Below are positions 9,894 through 42,870 of a DNA stretch of 64,000 bases, one piece after another. The notes below the pieces were generated by a model that was not told where the DNA came from, did not search any database, and saw only the letters and a list, made by a program, of their open reading frames with translations. This DNA comes from Candidatus Pacearchaeota archaeon (lineage in GTDB: Archaea > Nanobdellota > Nanobdellia > Pacearchaeales > GW2011-AR1), in assembly GCA_016188825.1 (NCBI GenBank), contig JACPHA010000010.1, positions 1-64,000 on the forward strand, in the 5' to 3' direction. The translations under genes were made by a program, and so were the position numbers. Position 1 is the stretch's first letter. The number at the start of each line of letters is the position of its first letter.

Positions 9894-10100
9894 ATGGAAC
9901 AAAAACAAATCACTCTTGAGCAAATATACTACTCAATCCAGAAGATGCAACAAGAGATTCAGAGAATAAGCCAAAAAATAGAAAAAAAATTGGAGTTTGA
10001 GGAATGGGAAGAAGATTTAAATGCAATAGCAGATACAGATCTTCTTGCAGAATCGTGGTTATCTAAGGAAGATGAAGAAGCCTTTGCATATTTACAATGA
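9894..10100 (+). CDS. Antitoxin-like protein paired with MazF
   Basis: A 68-residue acidic protein with a coiled-coil N-terminal half (EQIYYSIQKMQQEIQRISQK) and an acidic tail (EEWEEDLNAIADTDLLAESW). It overlaps the MazF-like gene by 4 bases (stop and ATG share sequence at 10097-10100), the usual arrangement of type II antitoxin and toxin. The tail resembles acidic MazE-type neutralising ends that fill the toxin groove. Confidence 0.7.
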   Translation: MEQKQITLEQIYYSIQKMQQEIQRISQKIEKKLEFEEWEEDLNAIADTDLLAESWLSKEDEEAFAYLQ

Positions 10101-10316
10101 AATATGAAAAGTTTGATATCGTTTTAGTTGATTTTCCATTTACTGATTTAACTCAAACTAAAAAACGGCCGGCTCTAGTCATTAAATCTCTTGAAGGAGA
10201 AAATACGATTTTATGTCAAATTACAACAAAGAGAAGAAAAATTCAAAAATACGAAGTTTTTTTGCCAAGACAAGCGTGCAGAGGCGATATTCGGTTTAAT
10301 TCTTACATTTATTTTG

Positions 10317-10580
10317 GGCTTTTGTTTAGTTAAAGGGTGATAAATCTTATTATGTCGTCAATCAATCGATGGAGTTTGCTAATTATGGTTAGCTAAAAAG
10401 AGTGGTTAATTGGGATTGTAATTATAGTCTAGGACATTAATAATTTCTGTTTTGTCATAGACTATCAAGGGAAAGTCATACAATTTTGTTCAATTATTTA
10501 TGACTTTCACTATAATCAACATTTACAGACGATAAAATAACTGGATTTGTAATTCCATCACCCGTTCAGTTAACAGTACC
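10317..10580. mobile_element. 264-bp MITE-like element inserted in mazF
   Basis: The element is flanked by a perfect 7-bp direct repeat TATTTTG (10310-10316 and 10581-10587), as expected of a target-site duplication. Its ends form imperfect terminal inverted repeats of about 24 bases, best conserved as GGGTGAT (10335-10341) against ATCACCC (10557-10563). It has no open reading frame, so it would need a transposase in trans. Its interior has hairpins, including the repeat unit at 10433-10515 that also occurs at 16274 and 42757. Confidence 0.75.
10424..10515 (+). repeat. Hairpin repeat family 2, copy in mazF element
   Basis: Outer stem ATAGTCTA/TAGACTAT encloses GACATTAATAATTTCTG. A second stem, GAAAGTCATA with TATGACTTTC, is followed by ACTATAA. 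The same order of blocks appears at 16274-16358 and 42757-42869. In the 16274 copy the second stem reads AAAGCCATA/TATGGCTTT, a paired change that keeps the stem. Confidence 0.65.
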
Positions 10581-10706
10581 TATTTTGATATGATATTCAC
10601 TCTTCATAAAAATTTGATTCATCAAAAAATAGGTGAAATTTTCGATCATTCAACAAAAGAAAAAATAAATGATGCCATCAGAATAATTTTTTCTTAGAAT
10701 ATTGAA

Positions 10707-11247: not shown

Positions 11248-11925
11248 GTCCGGCGCGGGAAACCTACAGCTTTCTAAGCTGTAGATGAGAGCGCCCAAAC
11301 TTTTTTCTATTTTAATTAATAAGAAACAATGAGCTGGATGTTAGCTCATTGCATTAAGAGATGTAGTGATAACTTTCTGGTTCTAAATAAATCTTTTGGA
11401 GGAAAGAAAATGCAAGAAAAATTATTGTTTAGCGAGAGCTATGAAAAATTTGCAGATAAATATGAAAGGAGGGATCACAGCGTCGGAGTTTCGATGTGGG
11501 AGTTTGAGTGGTGCCCGAAATATCGATATAAGATGTTTCGAAAGTGGAAATATAGAAAGTTGGTTGAGGCTTGCGTCAGGAGAGCAGCGACGGAAAACGG
11601 AATAAAGTGGCTTGAGTTAAATGTGCAGCCTGATCATTTGCACGGGACCGCGGTTATTCCGATGACGATGTCGCCGTCGATAGCGTTGCAATTGTTGAAA
11701 GGAAGATCGGCCTTTCTTTTTTTTCGCAACCATCCGGATGCAAGAAAGAGATATCCGAAAGGACACTTATGGAGTCGAGGAAAATTCAGTGCATCACTCG
11801 GCTTTATTCAAGTTGAAGTTGCAAACAACTATATAAGAAATCAGGACAGACATCACGGAACTGTTTGGATAATAGAATAGACGTCGGAAGCCGCACTCCG
11901 CCGAAGGCGTGCGGAGGACATCACA
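11248..11925 (+). mobile_element. IS200/IS605-family element carrying tnpA only
   Basis: The TnpA gene is bounded by two hairpins of the sort such elements use as ends: CTACAGCTT/AAGCTGTAG at 11264-11284 on the left and a GC-rich CCGCAC/GTGCGG hairpin at 11891-11914 on the right. Both are much richer in GC than the surroundings. There is no TnpB gene, so it is of the IS200 type. Exact ends cannot be fixed without an empty site. Confidence 0.7.
11410..11880 (+). CDS. tnpA: IS200/IS605 Y1 transposase TnpA
   Basis: Single-strand transposase of the HUH/Y1 class. The metal-binding HUH motif is seen in QPDHLHGTAV and the catalytic tyrosine in ANNYIRNQ near the C-terminus; WCPKYRYKMFR is typical of the N-terminal region. 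I chose the ATG at 11410, preceded by GGAGGAAAG, over the longer frame from 11329, because known TnpA proteins start near this point. About 156 residues, slightly longer than the family norm. Codon and base use is GC-richer than in the neighbours, indicating recent arrival. Confidence 0.9.
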   Translation: MQEKLLFSESYEKFADKYERRDHSVGVSMWEFEWCPKYRYKMFRKWKYRKLVEACVRRAATENGIKWLELNVQPDHLHGTAVIPMTMSPSIALQLLKGRSAFLFFRNHPDARKRYPKGHLWSRGKFSASLGFIQVEVANNYIRNQDRHHGTVWIIE

Positions 11926-16190: not shown

Positions 16191-16266
16191 TTTATTATGT
16201 CAAGAATTTAATTGTCAGAATTCTTGGTGTCCAAAAGTCCAAACACACACAAGGACTTTTTGATAT
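16191..16266 (+). repeat. Hairpin repeat family 1, copy a
   Basis: The block begins TTTATTATGTC and holds two perfect 8-bp hairpins: CAAGAATT/AATTCTTG (16201-16226) and AAAAGTCC/GGACTTTT (16233-16260) with the loop AAACACACACAA. All 76 bases are identical to 28731-28806. It sits in the gap between rnp2 and the first pilin-like gene. Confidence 0.8.
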
Positions 16267-16273
16267 AGCCGAA

Positions 16274-16358
16274 GACATTAGTAATTTTCTGTTTGGCTTT
16301 GACTACCGAGGTAAAGCCATAGAAAAATGGTAGAAAATTTATGGCTTTCACTATAAAT
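16274..16358 (+). repeat. Hairpin repeat family 2, second copy
   Basis: GACATTAGTAATTTTCTG leads into the stem AAAGCCATA/TATGGCTTT, then CACTATAA. It matches the unit in the mazF element in order and spacing, with the stem base pair T-A changed to C-G. It follows directly after a family 1 copy, so the two families can be joined. Confidence 0.65.
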
Positions 16359-18400: not shown

Positions 18401-18745
18401 TATAGAGAGTTTTGAAAAACCCCAAAAACTTTCAAAACTCTCTAAGAAGGAATTTGAAAGAAAGCAAAGAAATAGGAGTTATTCAAAGTCCTCTATAAAA
18501 ATAAATATGCGAAGAATACAGAGATTTTCCTTAATTAAGTTGTCTCTTGTCGGAAAATCTCTGTCTGGAGAATTTAGATTTATGGTAACACAAGCAAGTA
18601 AATTCTCCATATCCGGGCTTTCAAGGGGAATTAAGCCACATTTTTTAATTATGGATAATTCTTTTGATTGGAGTAGTTTTTGGAGAATTATCCATCACGG
18701 GAATTCTGGACAAAAATTTATCCCGATTACCAGAATTCACGATAA
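18401..18745 (-). repeat. Array of about seven hairpins (family 3) between pilin genes
   Basis: Successive inverted repeats read on the + strand: GAGAGTTTTGAAA/TTTCAAAACTCTC (18405-18441), AGGACTTTGAA arms near 18460-18492, AGAGATTTTCC/GGAAAATCTCT (18520-18562), GGAGAATTTA/TAAATTCTCC (18567-18608), GGCTT/AAGCC, GGATAATTCT/AGAATTATCC (18653-18692) and a GAATTCTGG/CCAGAATTC pair (18700-18738). On the minus strand the order and loops match the arrays at 30006, 42868 and 54261. The long open frame through this region (18357-18809) is a by-product of the palindromes. Confidence 0.75.
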
Positions 18746-25091: not shown

Positions 25092-25190
25092 AATTATGTC
25101 AAGAATTTCCAATTCTTGAACACACCCAAGAATTTAATTGTCGGAATTCTTGGTGTCCAAAAGTCCAAACACACACAAGGACTTTTTGAT
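25092..25190 (+). repeat. Hairpin repeat family 1, copy b (with an extra hairpin)
   Basis: Starts AATTATGTC, then an extra hairpin CAAGAATT/AATTCTTG (25100-25118) and AACACACC, then the two hairpins found in copies a and c, including the loop AAACACACACAA. The extended stem ACACCCAAGAATT/AATTCTTGGTGT forms here. It lies between convergent genes. Confidence 0.75.
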
Positions 25191-42726: not shown

Positions 42727-42870
42727 TAAGGTGATATAGACTCTTTTATAATATAGGACATTAATAATTGACCAAGAGCGTCATAGACTATATCAATATT
42801 TCTGTGGTTTTAAATCTTGAATGTAGGAAAAGACATACAAATTGATAAAAAACATATGTATTTTACTATA
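42727..42870 (+). repeat. Hairpin repeat family 2, third copy
   Basis: Outer stem TGATATAG/CTATATCA encloses GGACATTAATAATTG; then AAAAGACATA with TATGTATTTT and ACTATAG. It begins GGTGAT, like the GGGTGAT end of the mazF element. Directly after it follows a family 3 array. Confidence 0.6.

Follow-up and report, generated by a model that had tools for sequence, protein, structure and literature searches.

The 264-bp insert that splits a mazF-like toxin gene in the window (the whole 64,000-nt stretch of Candidatus Pacearchaeota archaeon DNA analyzed here) consists of two separate elements, one inside the other: an outer MITE, M1, and an inner element with two hairpins, H1. Very probably, M1 was moved into the gene by an IS6/IS240-type transposase and carried H1, which had been inserted separately at a TA, as a passenger. 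We infer the following order of events: H1 would have inserted at a TA dinucleotide within a copy of M1, duplicating the TA; M1 was then probably mobilized in trans by an IS6/IS240-type transposase, a role deduced from sequence; and M1 would have entered TATTTTG(A) inside mazF, duplicating this target and ending the toxin frame. The wider H1 family would have been dispersed by a transposase acting at TA, its end hairpins being kept by compensatory change. The locus records transposition that is recent, together with natural empty sites, in uncultured archaea with reduced genomes, and it connects a MITE with an IS of the same genus that is probably its partner; none of the papers searched mentioned miniature inverted elements together with Woesearchaeota, and MITEs did not come up in the DPANN papers listed. 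The features are listed in Table 1.

Table 1. Coordinates, strand and basis of the features of the mazF locus, of M1, and of the H1 copies in the window.
Feature	Position	Strand	Basis
Putative antitoxin gene, 68 aa, intact, overlapping the mazF start	9894..10100	+	ORF
mazF 5' part, residues 1-73	10097..10315	+	PF02452; identity to G003; alignment
Left target-site duplication TATTTTG (8-bp register 10310-10317, TATTTTGG)	10310..10316	+	Sequence
M1, MITE, 264 bp (263 bp in the G-tip register), no ORF	10317..10580	+	Sister copies; IS6/IS240-type ends
M1 left terminal repeat GGCTTTTGTTTAGTTAAAGGGTGAT	10317..10341	+	Sequence; alignment of copies
H1, two hairpins, TATAGTC...CACTATA; TA duplication 10423-10424 and 10513-10514	10423..10514	+	Missing from M1 in C3 and C19; model R1, 108 bits
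H1 hairpin 1, arms 10424-10435 / 10454-10465	10424..10465	+	Inverted repeat; covariation
H1 hairpin 2, arms 10468-10479 / 10500-10511	10468..10511	+	Inverted repeat; covariation
M1 right terminal repeat GGTACTGTTAACTGAACGGGTGAT (minus-strand reading)	10557..10580	-	Sequence
Right target-site duplication TATTTTG (8-bp register 10581-10588, TATTTTGA)	10581..10587	+	Sequence
mazF 3' part, Asp74 to stop, frame still open	10587..10697	+	Alignment
H1 copy adjoining a copy of repeat unit B	16264..16355	+	Covariance model
Diverged H1 copy	18650..18744	+	R1, 40.9 bits, E 2e-5
Diverged H1 copy	42782..42870	+	R1, 37.5 bits, E 9e-5

The mazF-like gene (10097-10697) is interrupted by 264 bp between Phe73 and an Asp codon. 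After Phe73 (10313-10315), the frame reads GLLFS and then meets a stop codon (10331-10333); it resumes at the Asp codon (10587-10589) and is open as far as the stop at 10695-10697. The net shift between the two parts is 271 bp (264 + 7), and not the 265 bases given in the first-pass annotation of this DNA. The 5' part matches the PemK/MazF family (PF02452) at 5.2e-8 in a profile search, and intact homologues are 66-74% identical to it, the protein from G003 standing at 74%. That annotation had proposed looking in close relatives for an intact mazF with an empty site, and four members of the same genus or family (G003, G054, G009, and G036) harbor one: with the two parts aligned to the relatives separately, and not as joined flanks, the 3' part aligns from residue 74 with all four, gapless at the junction. 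Upstream, the 68-aa ORF has no Pfam match above cut-off; a small ORF with a similar end (...AFAYLQ / AFSYLQ) also lies just upstream of mazF in the intact relatives, and the 68-aa ORF is likely the antitoxin. Cut short in this way, MazF loses the C-terminal third and probably has no activity.

The direct repeat TATTTTG on both sides of the insert is exact, as had been noted, and the imperfect inverted ends GGGTGAT/ATCACCC are likewise present, although they belong to the outer element. The ends read GGCTTTTGTTTAGTTAAAGGGTGAT and ATCACCCGTTCAGTTAACAGTACC, and 19 nt within them (10323-10341 vs. 10557-10575) are 79% complementary; in the 8-bp register, the two duplications match at 7 of 8 positions. 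The insert had been described as free of genes, and no ORF of at least 60 aa occurs within it. Other copies with the same ends exist in the host, where M1 is present, whole or in part, at five further sites (C12, C8, C20, C3, and C19, the last being 5'-truncated). The aligned copies share a skeleton of ∼173 bp with the ends GCTTTTGTTTAGTTAAAAGGTGAT and, on the other strand, G(G/C)TTCTGTTAA...GGGTGAT. Perfect 8-bp duplications flank the copies in C20 (TGCAAGAA), C12 (AAAAATAA), and C8 (CGTTTTTG), while that of C3 is degraded. Relatives of M1 also occur in another genus, one of which (G047/L217, 117 bp) has a perfect 8-bp duplication, TGAAAGAA; the duplication at L215 matches at 7 of 8 positions. 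A GG tip and a cTGTt motif recur in the right ends (GGTTCTGTT, GGTACTGTT, and GGCTCTGTT), and the left end is a looser version of this tip motif (GGCTTTTGTT). The mazF insertion shows that M1, the outer element, moved.

Weak matches to M1 in G017 and G031 were rejected, as they lie within unrelated coding sequence, and the 17 matches to the M1-end pattern in viral contigs were all in unrelated sequence contexts. The same pattern gave one match in the genome contigs, and this was an IS in G008 (Nanoarchaeota archaeon MM_PW_MetaG.mb.4), a genome of the same genus.

This IS, 954 bp long (L096:782-1735), was found via a search for IS6/IS240-type transposases, and provides the transposase with matching ends that the first-pass annotation had envisaged. 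Its ends are GATTCTGTTAAGCCAACGGGTGAT and GATTCTGTTAACTAAAAAGGAGAC, and it has the 8-bp duplication GCTTAAGT on both sides. Compared over 24 positions with right ends of M1, its left end agrees with that of the C19 copy at 21, and its right end with that of the C8 copy at 19, to be read against 60 shuffled sequences, in each of which the best match was 15-19 of 24. The encoded transposase has a PF13610 domain (56.9 bits, cut-off 27), and its best NCBIfam match is IS6 (1.5e-28), at 99.9 bits against an IS6 equivalog cut-off of 125. By eye, it has Glu where a relative (L102) has Asp, at the apparent first catalytic position; with this residue and the score below cut-off, the L096 copy may itself be inactive. 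A second, degraded relative of the IS, with similar ends, is present in G024. The host assembly (1.0 Mb in 20 contigs, 82.8% complete) yielded no IS belonging to this group; its sole PF13610 gene (C19, 77.2 kb) encodes a protein 25% identical to that of L096 and is without M1-like ends, and no relative of the IS was found in viral contigs. IS1595 was also considered as a partner and rejected, being absent from the host and having, in relatives, ends (GGTGATTAG...TTCCGCAC) that differ from those of M1.

Members of the IS6 family have 8-bp duplications, GG tips and a CTGTT motif, and short, generally perfect terminal repeats; most IS of the family are 700-890 bp long, and two MITEs, 227 and 336 bp in length, have been reported for it (PMC7986276). 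Because its 8-bp duplications, its ends, and its other IS6 features match (GG tips, the CTGTT motif in right ends, and a best-matching IS that encodes an IS6/IS240-type DDE transposase), M1 fits an IS6-type MITE, a previously known kind of element. It differs from IS6/IS26 elements and their MITEs in its imperfect 24-bp repeats, its DPANN archaeal host, and the elements nested inside it. Its probable partner IS likewise departs from most of the family, being longer, with a transposase that scores below the NCBI IS6 cut-off.

The window copy of H1 comprises 92 bases within M1. Neither C3 nor C19 has this segment (10423-10514) in its copy of M1, and the C20 and C8 copies have other sequence in its place. 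In C19, the empty site reads TAATTAATTAGCAT; the filled site in C12 reads TAATTA[TAGTC...CACTA]TAATTAGCAT, with the TA exactly duplicated, and the window copy of M1 differs from C12 at the H1 site by two bases (ATCAACAT for ATTAGCAT). The empty site is thus defined by sister copies of a repeat, and not by orthologous loci. Since H1 occupies the same place within M1 in the window and in C12, it most likely entered mazF as a passenger of M1. The first-pass annotation had counted the hairpins as part of the inserted element and had taken the split mazF as direct evidence that they moved; that they moved is upheld, but the proof lies in the empty site inside M1 and in the H1 copies of G009 (below) rather than in the mazF insertion, and H1 is delimited by ends distinct from those of M1, TATAGTC...CACTATA, with TA as its insertion site. 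It is barely credible that a single 264-bp transposon jumped with the hairpins as part of itself: they do lie within the insert, and the shared unit in the window and C12 would be expected, but H1 occurs without M1 at ∼20 other host places and in 17 other genomes, and the simple form of this explanation is refuted by the H1-free copies of M1.

Two further units are nested in M1. Unit B, with two hairpins and ∼65 nt (CAAGAATTTAATTG...GGACTTTTTGAT), is inserted at TTATGT, in one place, in the C12 (L027), C8 (L029), and C20 (L030) copies, and unit C, likewise a hairpin pair (∼90 nt, TGGACAATTGC...AATTCTCTG), is inserted at one TA of M1 in both C12 and C8, its orientation in the one being opposite to that in the other. 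Other copies of unit B lie in the window at 16220-16355 and 25127-25190, and near 16.2 kb H1 is inserted at the 3' end of B, directly after it. This 3' end, CACAAGGACTTTTTGAT, resembles an IS200/IS605-type right end, and other hairpins are followed by it in L074 and L088.

Among the copies of M1 (L027-L031 and the window), there is a four-gamete conflict: B is present in C12, C8, and C20, and H1 in the window and C12, such that C12 has both and C3 and C19 have neither. Because combinations of both, either, and neither exist, this suggests that the M1 copies recombined, or that one TA was hit repeatedly, or that an insert was precisely lost. That H1 is common to the window and C12 may also be due to recombination, or to one TA having been hit more than once. 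The nested inserts, whose positions within M1 are fixed, naturally document the order of insertion, recombination, and possibly excision.

The occurrence of the hairpin unit elsewhere, as first described, is borne out by the four window copies and by the 22 matches in the host genome. With a covariance model (R1) built from 25 copies, 93 related genomes were searched, and H1 was detected in 18 of these, with up to 29 copies each (host, 22; G009, 23; G029, 29; G030, 20; these counts include a few places matched on both strands). The family is mostly 73-95 nt long, and G009 has several near-identical 73-nt copies in unrelated flanks. In the flanks of 56 copies, TA is present on each side in nearly all and no other feature is constant, with a mild preference for Y before (33/48, p ∼0.002) and R after (34/48, p ∼0.005). 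H1 was not found in viruses, and an Rfam search of the window returned only two tRNAs.

Both hairpins of H1 show compensatory change. The local hairpins are paired in 87% of cells, with two-sided changes in 13 of 24 pairs, compared with 6.1 in shuffled and 3-6 in slid alignments, and with 42 two-sided-change cells compared with 9.0 in shuffles (0 of 500). End-to-end pairing, at 78%, covaries only at chance level (2 pairs vs. 2.1 in shuffles). RNAalifold recovers the same two hairpins, and in hairpin 2 one position is unpaired in 25 of 25 copies. Because the local hairpins covary and the end-to-end pairing does not, each hairpin is maintained in its own right, an uncommon trait in a simple terminal inverted repeat. 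H1 therewith poses a testable question: what moves a TA-inserting element that conserves hairpins at its ends, and not terminal repeats?

A plausible, if tentative, answer is that H1 is an IS630/Tc1-mariner-type MITE, recognized via duplex terminal inverted repeats in the manner of RUP, for which an IS630/Tc1-mariner-like enzyme has been proposed as the mover (PMC2229807). TA on both sides, its duplication relative to the empty site, the weak symmetric Y-TA-R preference, and ends that start with TATAG, as in the IS630 elements of G029 and G032, are all consistent with such an origin, as is the presence of unit C at one TA of M1 in both orientations, which a symmetric target allows. Against it, the covariation resides in each local hairpin and not in the end-to-end pairing, the IS630 ends of relatives (TAGATAACTGC) are unlike those of H1, and DDE_3 (PF13358) was not found in the incomplete assemblies of the host (G000), G009, and G030, each with at least 20 copies of H1. 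Absence of a candidate transposase is weak evidence here, since all these genomes are incomplete.

More doubtful is an IS200/IS605-type origin, whereby the two hairpins would be recognized as single strands by an HUH/Y1 transposase. A covarying hairpin at each end, one with an invariant mismatch, is in keeping with this, and Y1 transposases are encoded in 13 of the 18 H1 genomes, including one 0.9 kb from the window H1: an open IS200/IS605 Y1 frame at 11404-11880 (NF033573, 78.9 bits), 0.8 kb from the insert. This frame is not bounded by H1, however, nor were any of the Y1 loci examined; in G006, H1 is not at the end of the IS200 element, and a Y1 gene was not detected in five incomplete H1 genomes (G030, G035, G046, G047, and G044). 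The flanks of the 56 copies are diverse beyond TA, without a fixed target, and the empty site in M1 fits a TA duplication. Palindromic MITEs derived from IS200/IS605 (PATEs) have a hairpin near each end and a conserved stem mismatch. H1 is like PATEs in both respects, and unlike them in duplicating TA, in having no fixed upstream target, and in that no Y1 element with these ends was found.

H1 also resembles RUP and Correia/NEMIS (PMC2229807) in being ∼100 bp long, dispersed, hairpin-rich, and without an ORF, and in its TA termini and TA target. It differs from these in that its separate end hairpins covary and the end-to-end repeat does not, and in that the searches turned up no IS630 relative sharing its ends. 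H1 is a Correia/RUP-like TA element with structured ends, new among TA-inserting mini-elements. We think it unlikely, given present evidence, that H1 duplicates TA, is moved in trans in DPANN archaea, and has end hairpins under selection for their local folding as single strands, a combination that we did not find described in the literature searched. If this were true, either a DDE enzyme would read folded ends, or an HUH-like enzyme would have a TA target. That H1 is instead a conserved regulatory RNA element, and not mobile, is very improbable: the strong compensatory change in both helices could suggest it, but near-identical copies lie at unrelated sites in G009 with random placement, one copy is inserted inside M1 with an empty site, and the distribution is patchy (18/93 genomes), with no Rfam match in the window apart from tRNAs.

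Variants of H1 enlarged to ∼150 nt, with one or two extra hairpins between the halves, are present at L199, L200, L201, and L203. In an IS200 element of G006 (L038, ∼1284-1416), a copy of H1 separates the left hairpin from the start of tnpA.
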